DNA from: a virus
Length of the DNA: 44,504 nt
Reading direction: 5' to 3' (one strand)
Virus record (IMG/VR): IMGVR_UViG_3300026094_000011
Coordinates: 1-44,504 of that record
The notes beneath the pieces are model-generated. The model was not told the origin of the DNA and made no database searches. It saw only the letters and a list, made by a program, of their open reading frames with translations. Positions 5,801 to 44,488 of this stretch are shown in pieces. The stretch's first letter is position 1. Each line of letters begins with the position of its first letter. A program made the position numbers and the translations under genes.

Positions 5801-6544
5801 TTAACCAACATGAAAGTCTATTGGATATTCATATTTAAGCTGCATCTCTTCCTCAATCTGCCGTATCTCTTCCGTTGCCTCATCAAACATTTGCTGACCG
5901 TTAAAAGTAACACCTCCTGGTAGTTCCATACCTTCAAACTTTTTAAGGTTTACACCCCACTGCCTTTTGAGGAGAGCAGTCAGGTATCGCTTAAGGAACA
6001 TATCATTGTAGACATCGGTATGAGTATCAGGATCAAGAATGCGGTATCCTTCAATGACAACATATTCGCCAAGTTGAAGTTGATACTCCCAGTCAATATT
6101 AAGATAAAGTCTATTCATATGTCGATTAAATTCAACCTGTGGCGTACCATTAATCATCATATCAATGGTTGAAATATAATTCTGAACATGTACATAATTT
6201 GATAAACTACCGGCAAACCCCAAGTTATACATATCGTTTAATGCCATTTGATATCGCGCATCAAACATTGAGACCGAGGAATTGTCATAAGAAAGTGGTA
6301 GAATTTTAACGATGTTAATTACCGCATCGGGGATTGGAATCCATTCATTATCACGATCGTCCTGTGTAATCTCATGTTTAAAAAAATCATGATAGATTGC
6401 ATCTGAATGGTATTCACGATAAAACTGAAGTGCCTCATCAACTCGATCCTCAATTTGATCTTCATCCAAATTTACTTCGAGTACTGGCGCACCAAGATTA
6501 CGAAGACAGTAATTAATTAAGGATTTACGTGAATTTGGTATCAT
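5801..6544 (-). CDS. 13: Neck protein gp13
   Basis: This head-completion/neck connector sits under the portal. The N-terminus (LINYCLRNLGAPVLEVNLDEDQ... with QIEDRVDEALQFYREYH) is the hallmark of T4-like gp13. The middle segment (SMFDARYQMALNDMYN) and the C-terminal part (LKRQWGVNLKKFEGMELPGG) are also characteristic. Length is 247 aa against 309 in T4. The order gp13-gp14-gp15-gp16-gp17-gp18 is fully syntenic with T4. A near-consensus late promoter (AATAAATA) lies 28 nt upstream. No strong ribosome binding site is visible before the ATG. Confidence 0.92.
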   Translation of the reverse strand: MIPNSRKSLINYCLRNLGAPVLEVNLDEDQIEDRVDEALQFYREYHSDAIYHDFFKHEITQDDRDNEWIPIPDAVINIVKILPLSYDNSSVSMFDARYQMALNDMYNLGFAGSLSNYVHVQNYISTIDMMINGTPQVEFNRHMNRLYLNIDWEYQLQLGEYVVIEGYRILDPDTHTDVYNDMFLKRYLTALLKRQWGVNLKKFEGMELPGGVTFNGQQMFDEATEEIRQIEEEMQLKYEYPIDFHVG

Positions 6545-8611: not shown

Positions 8612-11200
8612 TTAAATTGCTCTGATTTTTAAATTTTCTGATTCAGTAGACAGATTAGTAAAACGAACCACAGTTTGTTCTGGCTGATCGTAAGTATAAT
8701 CAGTTCCCAATATTGCAGCCTCATTTTTTACATTTGCGTCATAATTAATATCAACCCCATTTGTAACAGGCGATGTTGTTGTCTGAGACGTAATATCAAA
8801 AATTATCCCAAGGTCGAGCGTATTAGTTACTGCAAAATAATCAGAATCAGAAGCTGATTGTAGCTGACTCCCATCCATTTTATTTGGGCTAATATTAATA
8901 GCTTCTTCTAAAGCATAATATATGTCATTAACTGTTGAAAGTTCCCAGGTTTCTGAGCCGTAAGTAACATTTGTATTAATTTCCCAATTACCAGAATTTA
9001 GTCTGACAATTTTTCTAACACCAGATCCGTTTAAAACCACGTCAAACGAATTGCGGTCATCTGTTGATATTCCATAGTATATCGACCCATCATTTTCCGT
9101 GTCGTTTGCTATCATATTATTAATATCTGCCCAGTATTCAGTATCAATTTGACCTTCGTTCGTAGTAATTGCAGACGACGTTTTATCTACCGCAATCAAT
9201 GATAGACCTAGATCATACTCAAATACTGTGCCTTGATCCATTGCAAATAATTTACCGGTGTCTGAAAGAAATAGACCTTCAGGTGAGGATATCTGACCTG
9301 AAACCGACAAGGTTGGACCAGTGGAGATTGATGAGGTCGCATCCCACGGAGTAGACAAAATATACTCAACGACGGTATCATTGCTTTCAAGCGCAAACAA
9401 CTTACTGCCAGTATTCTGATCTATATAAAATGCATCTATGGTGTTAGATGTGAAAGTTTGCTGGCCTGAAGACGATAGAGTCGAAATATTCCAAGGAGTC
9501 GAAAGATCATACTGATGTATTTCTCCACCACTTGACGTATACATCCGAGTACCATCATTCTTAAAAAATAGACCTTCGGTGCCGGTAACACTTGCACTAC
9601 GGGTCAAACTTGCAGTATCAATATCAAACGGCGTAGATAAACTATACTGTTCCATATTACCACTAGCATCCATTGTATAAAAATCGGTGCCATCATCGGA
9701 GACAAAAACACCCTCGGCCGTACCAGGATCAATTGATGAAGTATCCTTACTGCCGGCACTGCTTAAATCCCATGGAGTACTTAATATAAATTGAGCAACA
9801 TCGCCGCTATCGGCGGTAGTATAGAGTCTTGTGCCATCCCGATTAAATGACATGCCCTCTCCATCGGATTCACTGATGCTCAATGACGAACCAGAATATG
9901 TGGCATCCGTCAGATTTGTTTCCTCATTAATGGTGGCAAATTTAATACTAGAGTCAAATGTCAAGTCAAATAATTCCCAATCACCTGAGTTAATTGTAGA
10001 TGTATCATTAAATGAATTGATAATCTGATAATTACCCTCTGTATCAAGAATTAGAGCCTCACCACCATTACCAATTAAAACTTTACCCACATCAGTATCA
10101 ACAAACGAGCCTGAACCTAGAGTAAATGTTCCGTCTGTACTTGAGCTTGAAGGAGTTATTGTAGTGTCGTAGGCCGTATCATGTAGCTTAAATGTATTTG
10201 TATCACAACACAATGCCCAATCGGAATTTGTAAGATTAACCTGTGGAACTTCTTTGGTTACACTAATACTAGGATTTGTCGTAGGCTCAGCCAATTCAAT
10301 ATCAATAGTTTCACTGCCGGTAAATGATCTATTAACAACCGCCTTTTCAAGATCGGTTGTTACCGACTGCCATTTCGAACCATTATAAACTTCAGATTCA
10401 CTTAAATCTGTATTAAAGCGAACACTGCCCGTTATAGGATTCGAAGGTCTTTCCGCCGTTGTGCCACTAGGCAATGATAGAGACTTAGTTCCATTTGAAA
10501 GATTTAGAGAAAAGTCCGCGCCAATTACTGTTGTACCATTTATGGAAAATCCGTTTGTGGAATTAAAGCTGCCAGACGAAATTTCACCGGTGGATGCATT
10601 ATAAACAAGATCAGTTGAGGAAATATACCCATCTACAAGTTCACCGGAAGTTTGATCTGCCAAAATAACATGATAATCTTCGGTAAATCCATCATCATTT
10701 TTAATTGTAGGTGCAGCAATGGGTTTCCAATCAGTTACGTAATACCCTTCAAAATTATCAGTATCCTCGTTATAACGAATCTGACCTGTTATGGGTGTTG
10801 TTGGCTTCTGTGAATCAGTACCCGAAGGAATACCTAAAGCACCATCGTCAGAGAAACTTGGGTTTACTGAATTAAAGGTGACTATATTACTAACGCCACC
10901 GACATCGGTTTCAACAATTACCGATGAATCGTTGACCTGAAGATCTCCAGTAAAATTTGAAATCGTATCTGCATAATTGGCGTTATTTACATCAAAGGCT
11001 TGTACGTCTACTCCAATTTCAACACCAAGATTTTGTCTTGCCGCGGTTGCGTCGATTACGTCAGATAGATTCTGATCGCTCTCAAGTTTATTTGTGGTAA
11101 TTGAAATAAAGTTGAGGTCAACCTCTTCATTTGTAAGAGGAGAATTTTTAACAACTGCTCCTCCTCCTGTAGTTTCTCTTGTGGTAATTTCGGTAGCCAT
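8612..11200 (-). CDS. Tail fibre protein with beta-propeller-like insert
   Basis: This is an 862-aa fibre. The N-terminus contains NSPLTNEEVDLNF, a common attachment-end motif of marine phage fibres. Two related modules of the form PxNPITGxxRFN / TPITGQIRYNEDTDNFEGYY, followed by W, lie at about residues 130-165 and 245-280. Residues about 440-668 carry about five copies of a roughly 46-residue repeat with the core G..F..DGT.LYT......V.QY.LSTPWD, which looks like the blades of a beta-propeller. The C-terminal part is unassigned. The propeller is a plausible glycan-binding head (inference). A perfect late promoter lies 39 nt upstream, with an AGGAG element before the ATG. Confidence 0.85.
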   Translation of the reverse strand: MATEITTRETTGGGAVVKNSPLTNEEVDLNFISITTNKLESDQNLSDVIDATAARQNLGVEIGVDVQAFDVNNANYADTISNFTGDLQVNDSSVIVETDVGGVSNIVTFNSVNPSFSDDGALGIPSGTDSQKPTTPITGQIRYNEDTDNFEGYYVTDWKPIAAPTIKNDDGFTEDYHVILADQTSGELVDGYISSTDLVYNASTGEISSGSFNSTNGFSINGTTVIGADFSLNLSNGTKSLSLPSGTTAERPSNPITGSVRFNTDLSESEVYNGSKWQSVTTDLEKAVVNRSFTGSETIDIELAEPTTNPSISVTKEVPQVNLTNSDWALCCDTNTFKLHDTAYDTTITPSSSSTDGTFTLGSGSFVDTDVGKVLIGNGGEALILDTEGNYQIINSFNDTSTINSGDWELFDLTFDSSIKFATINEETNLTDATYSGSSLSISESDGEGMSFNRDGTRLYTTADSGDVAQFILSTPWDLSSAGSKDTSSIDPGTAEGVFVSDDGTDFYTMDASGNMEQYSLSTPFDIDTASLTRSASVTGTEGLFFKNDGTRMYTSSGGEIHQYDLSTPWNISTLSSSGQQTFTSNTIDAFYIDQNTGSKLFALESNDTVVEYILSTPWDATSSISTGPTLSVSGQISSPEGLFLSDTGKLFAMDQGTVFEYDLGLSLIAVDKTSSAITTNEGQIDTEYWADINNMIANDTENDGSIYYGISTDDRNSFDVVLNGSGVRKIVRLNSGNWEINTNVTYGSETWELSTVNDIYYALEEAINISPNKMDGSQLQSASDSDYFAVTNTLDLGIIFDITSQTTTSPVTNGVDINYDANVKNEAAILGTDYTYDQPEQTVVRFTNLSTESENLKIRAI
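9200..9880 (-). repeat. Five ~46-aa LSTPWD repeats inside the 862-aa fibre
   Basis: Five consecutive protein repeats end in variants of LSTPWD: FILSTPWDL, YSLSTPFDI, YDLSTPWNI, YILSTPWDA and YDLGLSL. Each is preceded by a GxxFxxDGTxLY-type strand pair. The repeats have diverged at DNA level, so this is an old protein-level expansion and not a recent tandem duplication. Confidence 0.8.
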
Positions 11201-11238: not shown

Positions 11239-11246
11239 TATTTATA
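11239..11246 (-). promoter_or_regulatory. T4-type late promoter upstream of the 862-aa fibre
   Basis: The minus strand reads TATAAATA, then GTTTT and A. It is an exact octamer in the 57-nt gap between the 1819-aa gene and the 862-aa fibre, 39 nt from the ATG. Confidence 0.85.
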
Positions 11247-18077: not shown

Positions 18078-19544
18078 TTAGCCTAAAGCAATTGCATATA
18101 CGATTGAATCGGTTGTTGTTGAATAATCTGAGGACCAGGTTGTATCATAGTCATCTGAGGAATTTTTAACCAGCACATCTCCAGTTACTCCTCCAGCTGC
18201 TACACCTTCACCTACGGGTCCCTGTGGCCCTACTGGTCCCTGTGGCCCCACTGGTCCCTGTGGTCCGGTGGGGCCAATTGCCGCTGTATAAGCCGATACC
18301 CATTGTGTGGAGTCATTGTCTGTATAATAGATATACAGATTGCCATTAGTAGAATCCCACCACAGACTACCTTCTATAGGCTCTGGAGGGGGAGTATCGC
18401 TAATTAAAACCTTACCATCTTCGCCATTTTTTACTGATACTGCGGTTACCCATTGGCCAGAATCAATATCCTGATAGTAGACATAAAGATTGCCGTCAGA
18501 CGAATCCCACCATAGTGTTCCATCCGATGGCGAAGATGGAGGCGAATCGGTAGTAAAAATTGGTAATGAACTTAAACTAGTTGAACCTATTCCAGTAACA
18601 TGACCAAAACCGTCCAAGGTAATATCCTGTATAACGGTATTACCAGAATTATCCACCGAACCCTGTGATGACGTATCCGCGTGATTAATATCGATTGATA
18701 CGGCTGTTGACTGATTGGCGGAAAACGTTCCTGATCCAGTCAGACCATTTGCACCAGAAATGGTTAATGTGCCATCACCGATCCGCGAGTCTACACGAGC
18801 ATTTGTGAAGTATAGATTATTTGAACCTTCAGATAAATCGTCGGTATTCTTACTTACAAAATCGGTATCAAATTCTGATGATGTATATAGAAATGGCTTA
18901 TTTGTAAAATTATCATAGTCAAGATAATATGCGCCATTCTGATTTTCAAGTGTATCGGCATTACCGCCGTCGACCGATACCGACAGCGTTGCATTACCTA
19001 AATTTGTAAATGTAGCGGATCCTGTTGCATCACCGGATAAAGAAAGTGTAGGACTAGCTGTCAATGACGTTGAAATGTCTATATCGGACGAACCATCAAA
19101 CGATGCCGAACCGATTACAGCGCCCGAAAGTTCAATTGATCTTGCGGTGGCAAGTGTATCTGCGGTATTTGAATTGCCGTTTACATTACCAACCAAGTTA
19201 CCATTAAAGGTGGTAGCGGAGATTGAACCGGAAACTTGTAGCTTATCTATACCGTTATCAGTATTCGTACCAACAAGCACATTGCCGGCAGATTCTGCAA
19301 ACCGAATCGTGCCGTCATCGTCAATTTCAATTGAGGGAGAACCGGCGGTATTATTTGCGGAAAATACTGTTCCGCCTGTTATATCTGCTATCGATAGCAG
19401 TTGACCAGAATCGCCCTGCCACGAGAGTGTATCCGAGTCAAACATCTCAAGAGTGATCGTGTTCGTACGATCTGGTGAGAGGTATTCTACGTTCTGCGTA
19501 CGAAGTCCGTTCTTAACTACGAACTTTTTATCATTTCCTGCCAT
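18078..19544 (-). CDS. Tail fibre with collagen-like repeat
   Basis: This is a 488-aa fibre. The N-terminus (MAGNDKKFVVKNGLRTQNVE) is a typical attachment-end sequence. The shaft contains ADTLENQNGAYYLDYDNFTN and a DGFGHVTGIGS unit, both shared with the 1043-aa fibre upstream. Next come two copies of a module with LWWDS..GNLYxYY.D..S.QWV.A (about residues 335-420). A short collagen-like stretch of Gly-x-y triplets (about 423-445, GPTGPQGPVGPQGPVG) leads to a small C-terminal cap. Collagen-like segments act as trimeric shafts in phage fibres. It has a strong purine-rich ribosome binding site (AGGGGAAAGGG) and a perfect late promoter 37 nt upstream. Confidence 0.88.
   Translation of the reverse strand: MAGNDKKFVVKNGLRTQNVEYLSPDRTNTITLEMFDSDTLSWQGDSGQLLSIADITGGTVFSANNTAGSPSIEIDDDGTIRFAESAGNVLVGTNTDNGIDKLQVSGSISATTFNGNLVGNVNGNSNTADTLATARSIELSGAVIGSASFDGSSDIDISTSLTASPTLSLSGDATGSATFTNLGNATLSVSVDGGNADTLENQNGAYYLDYDNFTNKPFLYTSSEFDTDFVSKNTDDLSEGSNNLYFTNARVDSRIGDGTLTISGANGLTGSGTFSANQSTAVSIDINHADTSSQGSVDNSGNTVIQDITLDGFGHVTGIGSTSLSSLPIFTTDSPPSSPSDGTLWWDSSDGNLYVYYQDIDSGQWVTAVSVKNGEDGKVLISDTPPPEPIEGSLWWDSTNGNLYIYYTDNDSTQWVSAYTAAIGPTGPQGPVGPQGPVGPQGPVGEGVAAGGVTGDVLVKNSSDDYDTTWSSDYSTTTDSIVYAIALG
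18211..18275 (-). repeat. Collagen-like 18-bp tandem repeat
   Basis: About three near-perfect 18-bp units (GGTCCCTGTGGCCC plus four bases on the plus strand) encode the GPQGPV triplets of the 488-aa fibre. Such in-frame repeats can gain or lose units by slippage, changing shaft length without breaking the reading frame. Confidence 0.85.
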
Positions 19545-19580: not shown

Positions 19581-19588
19581 TATTTATA
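19581..19588 (-). promoter_or_regulatory. T4-type late promoter upstream of the collagen fibre
   Basis: The minus strand reads TATAAATA, then GTCTT and A. It is an exact octamer in the 77-nt gap between the 1043-aa and 488-aa fibres. A run of ten T residues on the transcribed (minus) strand, at about 19593-19602, lies just upstream. Confidence 0.85.
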
Positions 19589-24514: not shown

Positions 24515-24522
24515 TATTTATA
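24515..24522 (-). promoter_or_regulatory. T4-type late promoter upstream of the beta-helix fibre
   Basis: The minus strand reads TATAAATA, then CAATT and A. It is an exact octamer in the 69-nt gap after the 746-aa fibre gene, 51 nt from the next ATG. It lies directly downstream of the stem-loop at 24524-24548. Confidence 0.85.
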
Positions 24523-26989: not shown

Positions 26990-27331
26990 TTACTCTGTTC
27001 TCGTAACCTGAGGTATAATCTCTACGATTCCTTCAAGAACCTTGAATCGAGTACCAGAAACCGAATCTTCGGCAAAAATATCGTAGACATAACGCCCACC
27101 GCGCATTTGGCTAGTTGTTTCTTCCGGCACAGTAATTTCAATTTCTCCATCATTCGCATCTGTAATGGAGATAGTAAAATCATATGATGTTTCTGACTGA
27201 TACGTGCGACGAATCTGTCCATCGAACGTCAGGTTTGTAAGCTCAAGAGGATCTGAATTTCTATCCTCGAGAATAATACCTGTCTTGTAGTCAGAACCTT
27301 GATCAATGTAAATATTTGCGTATGTAGCCAT
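26990..27331 (-). CDS. Small beta-sandwich structural protein, predicted leaderless mRNA
   Basis: This 113-aa protein has the pattern IDQGSDYKTGIILEDRNSDP, L.NLTFDGQIRRT, EIEITVPEETT, GRYVYDIFAED, then VLEGIVEIIPQVTR. The pattern is widespread in tail proteins of many phages and resembles the N-terminal domain of baseplate upper proteins that connect fibres to the baseplate. No ribosome binding site precedes the ATG. The perfect late octamer at 27337-27344 sits exactly 5 nt upstream, so transcription from it should start at the A of the ATG. It heads the run of fibre genes. Confidence 0.83.
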   Translation of the reverse strand: MATYANIYIDQGSDYKTGIILEDRNSDPLELTNLTFDGQIRRTYQSETSYDFTISITDANDGEIEITVPEETTSQMRGGRYVYDIFAEDSVSGTRFKVLEGIVEIIPQVTRTE

Positions 27332-27336
27332 GGTAC

Positions 27337-27344
27337 TATTTATA
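27337..27344 (-). promoter_or_regulatory. T4-type late promoter 5 nt before an ATG
   Basis: The minus strand reads TATAAATA, then GTACC and ATG. It is an exact octamer in the 24-nt gap after the 71-aa gene. Placed at -13 to -6, as in T4, it puts +1 on the A of the start codon of the 113-aa gene. Confidence 0.85.
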
Positions 27345-30500: not shown

Positions 30501-32557
30501 TCATATGAAATTGCTGAATATGAATCAGCGGTAAAGAAATCACCTGACCCATGATTAAAATAATTAAATGTGATGGTTAATTCAGTTTCTGGGGCTGCAA
30601 ATCCGGAACGAAGCCTGAGTGTTGAGATATCATAATAGTTATCTCGCTGTCCGGTATCAAGGATATAATAAGAACTAAAGTCGTTTCCATCACCATCAAC
30701 AATCGAAACAATCTCATATACGTCAGCAAACCCAAGATCAATGGTCGAACCTGGAGTCGCAGATGTAGTAAGAGTCGTATTCAGAATGGGCGTTTTTGTT
30801 TTAATCTGTGCGGATGACTTAAACATTACCGCATAAATTTCGACCTCGTCATTATCATTAATATCAAAATTACTAAGATCAAGAGTTACGGTTTGATTAC
30901 TCGCCGAAACGCTAACCGAATTCGGAGTATTGACGTCGCCGATTGATTCCGCCAAAGTCGATTCATTTACAATGTTGGTGACATATACAAGATAGTCGGT
31001 CACCTCATCTCTAAATTGTTCTGCACTAGCTGCGGTCGAAATTGTAACAGACGAACCTGATACCACAGATGCATATTTTTTAAAGAAATTAAATGATGAA
31101 TTTGTGACAGTATCAACTTCAGAAAATGGAAGATTGTAAATGGATGTCTGATCGGAAGGTTCTTGAAGAACAGTATTGCCAGACTCGACTGAACCTGCTT
31201 GTACTTCACCGGCGAACACCGGAAAAGTTGAATCTGAGAAAAATGTATTAACATCCGCGATCGAATTTGATCCGATAAAACTGAAATTAAAAAGATGGAG
31301 ACGAACAACCGGTTCACCTTCGACAACAGACTGCACTGCATCATATTCAACAGCCTTTACTGTTGCTGTACCAACCTGAGTTAAAGGTTCAACTGGCACG
31401 TTATTTGTATAGCTATGCGCAGCATCAGAATATAGTTTTACTGTACTGAAAGGTTCGGGATGACCAAATAAAGCTTTAACATGAATGTACTCTCCATATT
31501 GAAGAGGTACGAGTGTATTATTAGCAGATTCGGTAGTCCGGGCCTTATCAATATCGATTCGTGTTGTATCGGTAATATTAACACGATAACCTCTAATGTA
31601 AGCCTTACCGGGCTCAAATTCAAGGCGAAGTTTTGTATTATCTGTAGGATGATCCTCAACACCAATCGTAAAGTTATTTAGAACATAGTCTCCAGACTCT
31701 TCGTATGTTCGTCTTGCAAGAGTATCACCAAGGACAGAATATTGAGTTTCCCTGGCTTCTTTCGCAATTTCACCGTCTACGATTCGAGCTATTTCATTAT
31801 AATCAATTAGATTTGCAACGTCATTTTTTAGAACAAGTTGGGCATCAATTTTATATCGATGAGCGCCCGGCGCAGTCTCGTTTGAACTACCTCGAGCATT
31901 ATCAAGTAGTGAAGGGTCCTCTTCTGGTGTAACAAAGGTTTCGTTGGATAAAAGTCCGATCGACACCTCACCTTCAATCTCATCGATGCCAGTATATTTT
32001 GACACGATAACAGATTGGGCATCAACAAGAACAAACTGTTCCCTAAGAAAATATACGCCTCTTTGGACAAGAACGATTGTAGCCTTGCCAGTATATCCTA
32101 CCAGACTCTCAGTTTTTACTGATTCAGTTACACCGTCATTTCGCGTGACTGTAAGATTTTCGTTCTGTGCAAATTCTCCGCCTGTTGTATACGAGATATA
32201 AAAGGTGAGTGGATCACCATTTTCCAAACGAGAGATTGTTGTAATTGTGGCAGAAACGCCAGAAGAGTTTTCAATTCGTGCGCCTTCATAATTATCATTT
32301 TTGTTGCTTGTAAGATTAGGATCTTGAAGCCGAATATATGTAATATCACCAAGAACTTTTACGGCACCGGGAATAACCAAAGAGCCATTTTCAAAAACAT
32401 GATCGCCGAATCTGGAAATTTGTTCCTGAAGAATTGTTTGAAGTTGGGTTAACTCACGAGCTTGAACCGCATAGCCTGGACGAAAAAGAATACGGTGAAA
32501 CTTTTTATTCCTATCATAATCATCAAAATACGGTTCTGTATTAAAGTTTATGGCCAT
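27578..32557 (-). CDS. Large baseplate/tail structural protein, DUF4815-type (1659 aa)
   Basis: The N-terminus MAINFNTEPYFDDYDRNKKF, followed by HRILFRPGYAVQARELTQLQ and GNxV/GDHVFENGSLVIPG, is the signature of the DUF4815 family in marine T4-like phages. The family part covers roughly residues 1-850. A second region around 850-1150 contains AFRANQSSLGTVWGAWRTFW and an Arg/Thr-rich stretch. A proline-arginine-rich linker (about 1140-1165, PPRPPAPTPPRRPF) leads to DPLAQSFGMSLEDGAFITSI and a beta-rich C-terminal region with AVWTSEMGQ. It lies directly after gp8, where T4 has gp9-gp10, so it is probably a baseplate-periphery protein that carries fibres. No enzyme motif. Confidence 0.88.
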   Translation of the reverse strand: MAINFNTEPYFDDYDRNKKFHRILFRPGYAVQARELTQLQTILQEQISRFGDHVFENGSLVIPGAVKVLGDITYIRLQDPNLTSNKNDNYEGARIENSSGVSATITTISRLENGDPLTFYISYTTGGEFAQNENLTVTRNDGVTESVKTESLVGYTGKATIVLVQRGVYFLREQFVLVDAQSVIVSKYTGIDEIEGEVSIGLLSNETFVTPEEDPSLLDNARGSSNETAPGAHRYKIDAQLVLKNDVANLIDYNEIARIVDGEIAKEARETQYSVLGDTLARRTYEESGDYVLNNFTIGVEDHPTDNTKLRLEFEPGKAYIRGYRVNITDTTRIDIDKARTTESANNTLVPLQYGEYIHVKALFGHPEPFSTVKLYSDAAHSYTNNVPVEPLTQVGTATVKAVEYDAVQSVVEGEPVVRLHLFNFSFIGSNSIADVNTFFSDSTFPVFAGEVQAGSVESGNTVLQEPSDQTSIYNLPFSEVDTVTNSSFNFFKKYASVVSGSSVTISTAASAEQFRDEVTDYLVYVTNIVNESTLAESIGDVNTPNSVSVSASNQTVTLDLSNFDINDNDEVEIYAVMFKSSAQIKTKTPILNTTLTTSATPGSTIDLGFADVYEIVSIVDGDGNDFSSYYILDTGQRDNYYDISTLRLRSGFAAPETELTITFNYFNHGSGDFFTADSYSAISYEEIPSYTSQSGVIHKLANSIDLRPIIDASGNFSNTPVSFVPDTEAIVDFVYYLPRRDKICVNTEGKFFVIAGVPDLEPEEPNGINNGITLYNIRMNAYTFDTDDINVRPVKHPRFRMKDIARLEDRIENLEYYSALNLVEQDALSREFVDKFKSGILVDQFTGHNVGDAQKETYRAGVDPQLGELRAESSTKSIQLEDNEEGSNYQITGNIVTLPYSETALVTQERASKIEKIQPFVNFSFNGTMILNPSSDSWVSTRRVPDTTLDTGNEFTAAFRANQSSLGTVWGAWRTFWRGNRLIRTRAGERTVRSESTETERLGDRVVNRSAVPFIRSRVIEFNATGMKPLANVTAFFDGVDVSNFVTPNGGSKGEQLTTSAAGTLSGTFEIPNNNDTRFRTGNRIFEILDDTETITTDASATYSASGILEDISTFFEATTIVDIDTSNVSQSNTVRVRRPTPPRPPAPTPPRRPFRRFRDPLAQSFGMSLEDGAFITSIDVYFGPIPDDNQFGVTVQIRNMENGFPGAEIAPYGSVTLGPNDLGTGSDDSTVATRFTFPSPVYLEEDEEYCFVILSDSEELAVWTSEMGQQDILTRETISKQPFLGSLFKSQNNSTWTPAQLEDLKFKINRAQFDTNVTGQIILENSVSANDSGTEADPYVNILPTSPFIFENGSNYIKVLHPNHSMIDGDTVRFTSPNSGPFAGVPENEIFDVDLTVTVGPSSEPIKPDEYYVQVTTAANISSRSGSADILATQHVSFSTIHPIVETQNYPNTRLNWEFKGIDKFSRNADSNFTNITVGEDNYLKRSRTSIENGDGSVTVRGILESDRNNVSPFVDIKRIALLAVENRINNLEDTDDIAETDEAAARYITKAVELINPANEIRVFFDANRPSGTNIDVFYKVRETGSSIPIDDRPWQKIPADSYGSVTENFDTFREYSYSNTFTDDFNIHAIKIVMRSTDEARVPRIRDLRVIAIKD

Positions 32558-37250: not shown

Positions 37251-39080
37251 TTATTCGTTCTTATCAAATGTTCTGTAGTTTGCGCCGGAATCATCCTCAC
37301 CTGTAATGATCGTATCGACGTAACCTTCAACACTATATCGATCGCATCGGCAATCAACCATAAGAATCGTATTAAATGCTCCTGCAATATCATATGAATT
37401 TGGAATTGCCTCGATAGAAATCATTGTTCCTTCAAAATCTGTCGGCACAAAATCTGTAAGAATAATCTTATTTCGTTCGATTGTACCAACTCTTCGTTTT
37501 ACAACCGATTCGTTACCTTCGGTTCCCGATACAACAATAACCTCTCTTGTTCCATCGTTATTAAGAATATCAGTAAATCGGCAGTTATCAGCGCCGTCAA
37601 TACTGAATCTGCTCGACGAACGAATTACGGGGCGAGTGCCAAAACTTTCAAAAAGATCAACTGAATAATCAAGAGTATAAGTCCGTTTTTCGGATAACGT
37701 AGGCACGAATCTTCTTGAAATGTAGACTCGGGCAAAAGAGTTAAGGATAGATTCGTCGGAATTATCAACCGTACGAAGGAAGTTTGAATACCGAAATACG
37801 GAATCAAATTCATTCAATTCTATATTACTAAATTCTCGAATGTCTTCAGTAACATTACTCTCAAGAGCATTCTTTGAAAGGTTTGTGAGCGAAGGGTCGT
37901 ACTTAAAGAAAACCTCGAACGTTATATACAGAAATGCCGGATCAATAATCTCTGGCGTAATCGTTGCAACATTTTTCGGGCTAATAATGGTATCGGTAAT
38001 GAATTCTTTTTCCTCGTTTGTGAGAAACTCGGTATTCTTAGGATTTACCGAGATAAAAACCTTACCATACGCGGGAGGATCATTCTCCTCACCACCCCAC
38101 GCCTTAATCGATCTAAGGTTTGCAAATGACTCTCGTACAATTGCCTCGTAATCTCTTGATGTGACAGCACGATTCTGTGCGGCATACGAAAGTGGTGCAA
38201 GATATTTTATTGATTCAATTGACTCCTTTTCGGAGCCACCGCGAGCAGAATTTACCGTCGATACAGTAATATCACTGAAGCCAGAAATTGAATCGACCGA
38301 TGTAAAGATTCTTGCACCGTTTGCCGCGCCCTTTTGTGTGACACCAAATTCAATATTAATGACGTTACCGTTTTCTAGCTGAGTACCCAGGATACCGTCA
38401 CCAAATGTAATCTCGAAAAGACCGTCAGGATTTTCAGTAATAAAATATACATTTGAATCTGGTTCAATTGTCGTAAGTGATCGCGCAGGAATAAACGGCG
38501 TCGATGTCAATGAAGTCTGTGAATCAAAAACTCTGACAAGAAGTGTCGACGTATCGGCGTTCTCATTTGGAATCAGATATTTTTCATTTGATTCGGCATC
38601 GAAAATATATTCTGCTGTATTCAACGCGACTTGTTGAATCGGAATATTCTGGAACGAACCTGTAGTTGATGCAAATTCGTCGAGAGTAATAAACGTATAT
38701 GATGTATTGTCAATCTTTGCGCGAAATTTATGTCCGCGAGGAATAACGAGTCTTTCTCCCGCCGGGGCATCTGCTACCGTAATATCGACAACAGCACCAG
38801 CGGATGTTGCAGACCGAGGTGTATAACCTAGCTGCCGAGCGTGACCTACAACCGAACCACGAAACTGAGCGGTATCAAGAAATGTCTCGTTGAGGCCAAG
38901 ATTCGCATTTACCGCATTATAGTGTGTAACATATGAGAGAAGATTCACGAGGCTTGAAACCGCAGAACCTTCAAAATCATAGTCTTGCAGAGTATCCTGC
39001 GAACGAAGAAAGTCCTTAAGGTTATCTCGAATCGATTCAAAATCTATATCCGATACATCTAATCTTTTTGTTTCGTTCAT
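37251..39080 (-). CDS. 6: Baseplate wedge gp6
   Basis: This is the core wedge protein that forms the ring of the baseplate together with gp7, gp25 and gp53. It has 609 aa (T4 gp6: 660). Diagnostic segments are FLRSQDTLQDYDFEGSAVSS, VTHYNAVNANLGLNETFLDT, ARQLGYTPRSATSAGA, FEITFGDGILGTQLENGNVI and the J-like AVTSRDYEAIVRESFANLRS with KVFISVNPK. The gene overlaps gp25 by 4 nt and is followed after 2 nt by the 681-aa gene, consistent with coordinated synthesis of wedge parts. Confidence 0.95.
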   Translation of the reverse strand: MNETKRLDVSDIDFESIRDNLKDFLRSQDTLQDYDFEGSAVSSLVNLLSYVTHYNAVNANLGLNETFLDTAQFRGSVVGHARQLGYTPRSATSAGAVVDITVADAPAGERLVIPRGHKFRAKIDNTSYTFITLDEFASTTGSFQNIPIQQVALNTAEYIFDAESNEKYLIPNENADTSTLLVRVFDSQTSLTSTPFIPARSLTTIEPDSNVYFITENPDGLFEITFGDGILGTQLENGNVINIEFGVTQKGAANGARIFTSVDSISGFSDITVSTVNSARGGSEKESIESIKYLAPLSYAAQNRAVTSRDYEAIVRESFANLRSIKAWGGEENDPPAYGKVFISVNPKNTEFLTNEEKEFITDTIISPKNVATITPEIIDPAFLYITFEVFFKYDPSLTNLSKNALESNVTEDIREFSNIELNEFDSVFRYSNFLRTVDNSDESILNSFARVYISRRFVPTLSEKRTYTLDYSVDLFESFGTRPVIRSSSRFSIDGADNCRFTDILNNDGTREVIVVSGTEGNESVVKRRVGTIERNKIILTDFVPTDFEGTMISIEAIPNSYDIAGAFNTILMVDCRCDRYSVEGYVDTIITGEDDSGANYRTFDKNE

Positions 39081-39484
39081 CGTAGTCTCTCTACTGAAAA
39101 GTCGACCGAAGTGGTGACTCCTTCCGGTGAAATAATTTCGAACTCAACGCGGACATTTATCGCGTTACGATCGGGTGATCCATCAACTACCACACCGAGA
39201 AGATTTACTCGTGGTTCATAATTTCTAAGTGCTGTTCGAATCTGCTCTTCAAGAATCGTTTCGACAATCGGATCAAAGTTTTCAAATAACTGAGATGTAA
39301 TATCTGATCCAAAATTTGGATCAAATGGTCTTTCTCCACGATTCGTAAGGAGAATATTGAGCACAGACTGTTTAACAGCCTGTTCATTTTTCTTAAGAGC
39401 AACGTCTCCTGTTACAGGATTCGCACGAAATGCGAGATCAAAATCACTATAGGACTGTTCTCTTGCAACGATTGTACTTGCCAT
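39077..39484 (-). CDS. 25: Baseplate wedge gp25, predicted leaderless mRNA
   Basis: This is the small wedge protein that starts sheath assembly; it is related to TssE/GpW-family gp25 proteins. At 135 aa it is close to T4 gp25 (132 aa). The diagnostic motif is LLTNRGERPFDPNFGSDITS, followed by LFENFD. A C-terminal domain with EIISPEGVTTSVDFSVERLR follows. The perfect late octamer at 39490-39497 stands 5 nt before the ATG, so a transcript from it would begin at the start codon. The nearest purine-rich element on a read-through transcript (GGATAGG) is about 14 nt away. It overlaps gp6 by 4 nt. Confidence 0.95.
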   Translation of the reverse strand: MASTIVAREQSYSDFDLAFRANPVTGDVALKKNEQAVKQSVLNILLTNRGERPFDPNFGSDITSQLFENFDPIVETILEEQIRTALRNYEPRVNLLGVVVDGSPDRNAINVRVEFEIISPEGVTTSVDFSVERLR

Positions 39485-39489
39485 AATGT

Positions 39490-39497
39490 TATTTATA
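39490..39497 (-). promoter_or_regulatory. T4-type late promoter 5 nt before the gp25 ATG
   Basis: The minus strand reads TATAAATA, then ACATT and ATG. It is an exact octamer filling the 14-nt gap between the PAAR gene and gp25. The spacing equals that at 27337-27344. Confidence 0.85.
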
Positions 39498-39498
39498 C

Positions 39499-39792
39499 CT
39501 ATCCACCGGCAAACACATTACCAGATCCTGCTGCAACGGCGGATCCACATGCGACGGGATCGCCAATTCTTCCTAATTGTTGGCCATTTGCAAAGACCGT
39601 TCCGGATCCAGCAGCAAGAGTTGATCCATGCGGAGGTGATGGAGACGGAGAACCATGCGCGGACCAACCGTCGCCTTGTCTATGTGCGGGTATTCCATTT
39701 ACAAATACATTTGGACTTCCACCCGACGATGGTCTCGGACCAAATGATCCGTGACCTGTACATGCGTCACCAAGTCGAGTAACTGGAGGCAT
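39499..39792 (-). CDS. PAAR-repeat spike tip protein (gp5.4-like)
   Basis: This is a 97-aa PAAR protein that should form the sharp tip on the gp5 spike. Typical elements are MPPVTRLGDACTGHGSFGPR, VFVNGIPAHRQGDGWSAHG, SGTVFANGQQLGRIGDPVAC and a closing GSAVAAGSGNVFAGG. The candidate zinc ligands, His and Cys, are present (C12, H14 region, H37, H46, C82). T4 gp5.4 has the same size and role. It lies in the hub cluster between the Ig-like gene and gp25, with an AGGAT ribosome binding site. Confidence 0.93.
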   Translation of the reverse strand: MPPVTRLGDACTGHGSFGPRPSSGGSPNVFVNGIPAHRQGDGWSAHGSPSPSPPHGSTLAAGSGTVFANGQQLGRIGDPVACGSAVAAGSGNVFAGG

Positions 39793-43702: not shown

Positions 43703-44446
43703 TTAGAAGCCCTGCTCGACCAATTGTTTTGATATTGGTCTTAATTCTGTGAATGACAATGAAAGATTTGTCTCGACGGGCATACCATTATTTCTGAAGA
43801 ATGATATTGAATTTGGATTATATACCACGCTGATCGCAGTACATGCAACCTCTGGAATTTTAATAATGCCACCGAGTGCCTGACGATATGATATATTAAA
43901 TGTGTCAGGAAACTTATATTCGAGAGCCGCTTCTTCTGGATATGCTGCCGACCTAAAAAAACGGAGAATATCGGTTACGGATTCCGCTTCTTGTTCTGAC
44001 TGTGGAATAAATGTAAAGTCAAACGAAAATTCTCGAATGCCAGGAGATTTAAACATCATGAATTCTTTTGGATTTGTCACGCGTCCCTGGTTTCGGGCTA
44101 TAACCGATCCACCGGGAAGTGCTGCCGCAGCACCGCGAGTAACTCCTCGACCGATTCCCTCAGCAACAGCCTGAACACTCTCTTTTGTAATATCGGATAT
44201 ATCAGCACCCTGCTGCTGCAATCGGTTAATTGCTCGTCCGGTCATACCCTCTTCTTGTGATTCATAGTTAATACTATCACTGATTGTATGATTCGTCGGA
44301 AAATAAAGAGCAACCTGTGAACCACCCTCGGTTCTAATTTCACCGGTACTACGATTTGATCTGTCGTATCTTGGCCGTTGGGTGCTGAATACTATCCAAG
44401 GATCGCTAAATCCATTGAGATCTTCTGGAAATCTTATCTGTGCCAT
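43703..44446 (-). CDS. 48: Baseplate tail-tube cap/junction gp48
   Basis: This protein sits on the hub and starts the tail tube. It has 247 aa, shorter than T4 gp48 (364) and gp54 (320). Characteristic parts are MMFKSPGIREFSFDFTFIPQ, then SVTDILRFFRSAAYPE, and the C-terminal VVYNPNSISFFRNNGMPVET with LSLSFTELRPISK. The related gp54 is the alternative, but the order next to gp53 and the sequence favour gp48. No second member is in the window. A perfect late promoter lies 35 nt upstream, while no strong ribosome binding site is seen. Confidence 0.82.
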   Translation of the reverse strand: MAQIRFPEDLNGFSDPWIVFSTQRPRYDRSNRSTGEIRTEGGSQVALYFPTNHTISDSINYESQEEGMTGRAINRLQQQGADISDITKESVQAVAEGIGRGVTRGAAAALPGGSVIARNQGRVTNPKEFMMFKSPGIREFSFDFTFIPQSEQEAESVTDILRFFRSAAYPEEAALEYKFPDTFNISYRQALGGIIKIPEVACTAISVVYNPNSISFFRNNGMPVETNLSLSFTELRPISKQLVEQGF

Positions 44447-44480: not shown

Positions 44481-44488
44481 TATTTATA
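44481..44488 (-). promoter_or_regulatory. T4-type late promoter upstream of gp48
   Basis: The minus strand reads TATAAATA, then ATCTT and A. It is an exact octamer, 35 nt before the gp48 ATG, and probably starts the whole hub-wedge transcript. Its last base overlaps the ATG of the opposing plus-strand ORF. Confidence 0.85.

Follow-up and report, generated by a model that had tools for sequence, protein, structure and literature searches.

Start-Codon-Adjacent T4-Type Late Promoter Octamers Predict Leaderless or Near-Leaderless mRNAs for gp25 and Other Late Genes of Marine Myophages

In the 44,504-nt stretch of marine T4-like phage DNA analyzed here (the window), the gene for the baseplate wedge protein gp25 is preceded by an exact copy of the T4-type late promoter octamer, TATAAATA, which is followed by exactly five bases and then the ATG. 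We refer to this placement as N5. We consider it likely, with a probability of roughly 0.8, that the octamer is a gp55-dependent late promoter that would place +1 at the A of the ATG or no more than a few bases from it, giving rise to a leaderless mRNA. A sequence-only reading of the window had made this proposal for gp25 alone; it stood for gp25, and its scope proved too narrow, as N5 was found genome-wide in Pelagibacter/OM43 myophages. Judging from octamer spacing, N5 is in these phages a second mode of putative late promoter placement, beside leadered late genes that bear a Shine-Dalgarno (SD) motif, and the best reading of the late mRNAs at N5 genes is that they would be leaderless or near-leaderless.

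Results

The gp25 Start Region

The identity of gp25 (39077..39484, minus strand; 135 aa) is secure, with matches in both Pfam (PF04965 GPW_gp25, 7.7e-17) and PHROG (phrog_261, 1.2e-51). Read along the minus strand from 39504 to 39482, its start region is GGATAGG-TATAAATA-ACATT-ATG, in which the octamer occupies 39490..39497, the ACATT spacer 39485..39489 and the start codon 39482..39484; octamer, five bases and ATG are thus present on the minus strand at 39497-39482, as the sequence-only reading had described. Upstream lies a PAAR-domain spike-tip gene (39499..39792, minus strand; PF05488, 1.3e-16), whose TAG stop codon is followed by a single G, the octamer, the spacer and the gp25 ATG, with 14 nt between stop and start. 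The first T of the T4 late box is at -13 (PMC2988020), and a box that starts at this position has its +1 at the sixth base after the box, which in gp25 is the A of the ATG; the spacer would then cover positions -5 to -1. The earlier placement of +1 on this A is in agreement with the T4 numbering as well as with the preponderance of purines at the sixth base of leadered promoters, described below.

No SD match was found within the 20 nt before the gp25 ATG of the window. The sole purine-rich element upstream on read-through RNA is GGATAGG (39498..39504, minus strand), which is not a canonical SD; we measured its end at 13 nt from the ATG, close to the distance of about 14 nt given earlier. In T4, a hairpin in gene 25 reportedly brings a distant SD close to the start, and a stable hairpin was also predicted just upstream of the window gp25 on read-through RNA (one sequence folded). 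However, since those 20 nt contain nothing SD-like and the sole purine element is this far away, the hairpin does not bring an SD near the start, and the upstream sequence is unconserved among relatives whereas the octamer is conserved. We therefore regard a structured ribosome-binding site of the T4 gene 25 type as extremely improbable for this gene.

gp25 Spacing in Close and Distant Relatives

A gp25 search of viral contigs returned 31 loci. Octamer, five bases and ATG were found at gp25 in the window and in 26/26 marine relatives covering the start (53-97% identity), with 17 distinct versions among these 27 sequences. The five-base spacer has nine sequence forms and a constant length, the distance from PAAR stop to octamer varies from 1 to 5 nt (read from the sequences), and gp25 itself varies at its N-terminus and in its length (135 to 142). 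Within the window clade, indels occur in the spacer upstream of the octamer and none in the spacer downstream. On these sequences, chance is excluded as the source of the gp25 spacing across relatives, which lies far beyond it. In Aeromonas phages, which this search also retrieved, AAGGAG precedes the ATG and the octamer is absent.

The sequence-only reading had suggested aligning the gap between PAAR and gp25 in related marine myophages; N5 held in the window and its 26 relatives, but other gaps appear in more distant T4-like phages. In the cultured Pelagibacter phage HTVC008M, gp25 is also at N5. Among the best 80 relatives of HTVC008M in viral contigs, the octamer or its one-letter variant GATAAATA adjoins the gp25 ATG in 80/80, with gaps of 5, 6, 7, 8 or 9 that correspond to predicted leaders of 0-4 nt. 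The gp25 gap is 8 in Mosig, 16 in Melnitz, where an SD is present, 20 in phage C48C1 and 20-30 in several cyanophages and one Vibrio phage, while in T2, a Vibrio phage and several Synechococcus phages gp25 is leadered or lacks the octamer. Gaps of 6-9, 16 and 20 in some relatives indicate that a zero-length leader is not obligatory for gp25. As far as the sequences allow a promoter to be predicted, start-proximal placement is widespread, with exact N5 fixed in the window clade and common in the pelagimyophage clade and with an ordinary arrangement in some relatives. A freely varying distance between octamer and ATG, which had been named as grounds for rejecting the proposal, was not what we observed, although the distance is not invariant across all T4-like phages. 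In the gp25 tree, leadered cyanophage sequences separate the window clade from the pelagimyophage clade, which suggests separate origins, or loss, of N5; the long branches make this reading unsafe.

Among pelagimyophages, the gp25 gap was largely uniform within sub-clades and different between them (6 in loci L075-L093, mostly 8 in L096-L123), and the base at the sixth position shifted with the gap from one sub-clade to another.

Genome-Wide Octamer-to-ATG Spacing

We counted ORFs of 60 codons or more that begin at N5 and derived the expectation from 53 anagrams of the octamer. In the cultured Pelagibacter/OM43 myophages HTVC008M, Mosig and Melnitz, taken together with the window, N5 occurred at 11/82 octamers versus 0.385 expected (Poisson p 5e-13), while each other gap from 0 to 12 occurred at most twice and the base-composition anagrams had no N5 enrichment. 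The corresponding figure for a comparison set of T2, Syn9 and P-RSM6 was 1/47 octamers (none in T2, one in the two cyanophages). Five exact N5 sites are present in HTVC008M, at gp25 (ATG at 31132), gp2 (18916, minus strand), CsgF (7562) and two further genes with starts at 6280 and 49760 that encode a dioxygenase and a hypothetical late protein, and N6 sites are absent from this phage. The distribution of gaps is bimodal in HTVC008M, Mosig, Melnitz and two uncultured relatives, where a narrow peak at 5 is accompanied by a broad mode that begins near 13; in T2 and Syn9 only the broad mode is present. Across deduplicated marine loci, a set partly gathered through gp25, we found 63 N5 starts, and no other gap up to 30 had more than 8. 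Gap 5 also ranked first in IMG/VR contigs gathered by pattern, with 30 starts versus at most 9 at other gaps to 39 among the matches listed and with seed matches excluded. Octamers with N4 or N6 before ATGGCA were likewise often followed by an ORF among the matches listed in the IMG/VR pattern scans; since ATGGCA is itself start-like and only listed matches are counted, the N4, N5 and N6 counts from IMG/VR give no rates. A ATAAATAT control was discarded because it was contaminated by shifted seed matches, and the anagram controls stand in its place. None of the nine sequence sets contained an ORF starting with GTG or TTG at N5.

The window itself contains eight exact octamers versus 4.1 expected from shuffles, a modest excess, and one octamer by itself would not be surprising here. 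Each of the eight lies on the coding (minus) strand. N5 and an ATG follow two of them, at gp25 and at a 113-aa tail gene (26990..27331, minus strand; phrog_1084/phrog_3304), whose octamer (27337..27344, minus strand) is followed by GTACC. Relatives of the 27331 site keep the octamer but have leaders of about 20-25 nt, which suggests that the leader was probably lost in the window lineage, and we rejected this site as conservation support. Four further octamers, all on the minus strand and conventionally placed, lie 34-50 nt before the ATG of other tail genes: at 44481..44488, 34 nt before the tail tube cap gene (43703-44446); at 24515..24522, 50 nt before a tail fibre gene with GGAG 10 nt before its ATG; at 19581..19588, 36 nt before gene 18078-19544, with a purine-rich AGGGGAAAGGG leader; and at 11239..11246, 38 nt before gene 8612-11200, with AGGAG 11 nt before its ATG. 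Three of these four thus have GGAG, AGGAG or a long purine run. The only modestly high count is in keeping with chance octamers in AT-rich DNA that have no promoter function. Their placement on the coding strand in 8/8 cases, the conservation at gp25, the anagram and spacing controls and the purine signature at the sixth base all argue against this explanation, which is refuted statistically and which we consider barely credible.

Genes Behind N5 Octamers

The DNA end protector gp2 (phrog_429) has its gene placed at N5 in the cultured phages HTVC008M, Mosig and Melnitz; the same holds for one uncultured pelagimyophage and for members of the wider clade to which the window belongs. Octamer, five bases and ATG were located at gp2 in five divergent phages (L046:18392-18916, HTVC008M, minus strand; L136:6113-6670; L141:1670-2263; L154:15437-15961; L018:3826-4413), and in HTVC008M the gp2 gene with this placement is transcribed divergently from its neighbor. 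To judge by their start regions, gp25 and gp2 are recurrent users of the predicted N5 placement. Other N5 genes encode a tube cap (phrog_230), CsgF, a dioxygenase, an Fe-S assembly protein (PF01521), a head-tail adaptor, a tail tube protein and a baseplate or tail fibre protein. The Fe-S cluster assembly gene (PF01521; L145:1397-1705), from an uncultured pelagimyophage, has an ATAAATA-N5-ATG start, and the same start was observed at a similar gene in a second uncultured pelagimyophage (L155:1998).

The close spacing may alternatively reflect genome compaction. In this case the octamer would work, but gp25 would be made mainly from polycistronic read-through RNA, translationally coupled to PAAR, and the start-proximal promoter would be minor or imprecise by a few bases. 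The mere 14 nt between PAAR stop and gp25 ATG, the many genes here without an SD and the gp25 gaps of 6-9 in other clades are consistent with such coupling. Compaction, however, predicts a spread of small gaps, whereas we observed a spike at 5 and almost nothing at 0-4; nor does it fit with indels being confined to the upstream spacer, or with N5 at divergently transcribed genes such as gp2 of HTVC008M. We consider this explanation unlikely and favor a late promoter that would initiate at or near the start codon.

The Position of +1

In the leadered promoters of these phages, A takes the sixth position after the box with a frequency of 0.70, G with 0.18 and C with 0.00 (88% purine); in cyanophages this base is a purine in 90%. 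As no ATG is near at these promoters, the peak points to +1 at the sixth base independently of start codons; together with the T4 numbering (PMC2988020), it gives indirect support for this position at N5 genes. The base before the ATG at N5 sites is T or C in 92%, which makes for the usual pyrimidine-purine start. The few genes with a gap of 6 invariably have a pyrimidine as the sixth base, so that the A of the ATG comes seventh. Genes with a gap of 8 invariably have a purine at the sixth position, and for them a 3-nt leader is predicted. Homologues of gp55 and gp33 are annotated in HTVC008M and C48C1; the window has no gp55 or gp33 matches and, being a 44.5-kb fragment, covers its genome only partly.

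An AU-rich, unstructured stretch before the start codon helps initiation without an SD. In line with this general role, TATAAATA-N5 might act as a translation enhancer on longer transcripts rather than as a promoter with +1 at the ATG. However, the octamer also occurs 13-59 nt before SD-bearing late genes, where the purine peak at the sixth base is promoter-like, and anagrams of the same composition are not enriched at N5. An enhancer of this kind is therefore very unlikely to explain the pattern, and we retain the late promoter reading.

Translation Signals

SD motifs were found at 3/34 N5 genes versus 61/99 leadered late genes of the same phages (Fisher 6e-8). In these phages only about 30-44% of long ORFs have an SD, and with such low overall use the absence of an SD is by itself weak evidence; the depletion at N5 genes is supportive of leaderless translation as predicted from sequence, not decisive. 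Rarity of SD motifs and exclusive use of AUG, both expected of leaderless mRNAs, characterize the N5 genes. According to a review, leaderless mRNAs are bound directly by 70S ribosomes (PMC9031893).

Among the long minus-strand ORFs of the window (at least 150 codons), 7/23 have an SD-like motif. HTVC008M encodes the ribosomal protein bS21 (L047:41228-41431), and a link between bS21 and SD-independent or leaderless late translation is speculation.

Discussion

The octamer, its spacing and conservation, the sixth-base preference and the SD depletion are observations from which we infer promoter activity, the exact 5′ end and 70S-type initiation. In the mechanism that we propose, late RNA polymerase would start on the A of the gp25 ATG, yielding an mRNA with a 0-nt leader and a 5′-AUG, and a 70S ribosome would bind this terminal AUG directly, without an SD. 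RNA reading through from upstream promoters probably carries gp25 too. N5 late genes would then have their start codon at the predicted +1, unlike the expression of structural proteins in T4. If this is true, virion proteins of some abundant ocean phages are translated independently of an SD, and the rule of octamer, five bases and ATG predicts start codons and 5′ ends genome-wide. A broader proposal is that T4-like phages of streamlined marine heterotrophs run a set of late genes (gp25, gp2, tube cap, CsgF, Fe-S and others) as a dedicated leaderless regulon that is read in an SD-independent, 70S-type manner, possibly favored by a phage-altered ribosome (bS21 of HTVC008M), with late protein ratios set without leaders; we put this forward tentatively, as possible but doubtful.

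Both T4 late promoters and leaderless mRNAs are textbook subjects. Text searches of open-licence papers turned up neither a report that T4-like phages make leaderless late mRNAs nor a description of late structural genes with +1 at the start codon. Late-promoter prediction was unsuccessful in a study of pelagimyophages (PMC7029224), which the location of boxes so near to the start codon may partly explain.

Comparison With Known Systems

The T4 late promoters, which depend on gp55, gp33 and gp45 and have TATAAATA at -13 to -6, resemble the sites described here in the octamer, the predicted distance to +1 and the late structural genes served, and gp55 and gp33 homologues are annotated in relatives. 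T2 differs in that the nearest start codon is at least 12 nt behind the box and N5 does not occur, whereas the marine phages have a class with the ATG at the predicted +1. T4 gene 25 is the same gene as the window gp25 and also has an unconventional start region; in T2, gp25 directly follows the baseplate hub gene and has no late octamer at its ATG, whereas the window gp25 has one. The cyanophages Syn9, P-RSM6 and Syn19 have in common the family (Kyanoviridae), the octamer and the purine preference at the sixth base, but their start codons are typically at least 20 nt behind the box and N5 is essentially absent. The leaderless cI mRNA of lambda is like the N5 genes in its 5′-terminal AUG, predicted for the latter, its lack of an SD and its use of AUG only. 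Unlike cI, which encodes a repressor, the N5 genes are late structural and DNA-end genes that would be served by a phage sigma factor, and their arrangement is repeated across the genome.
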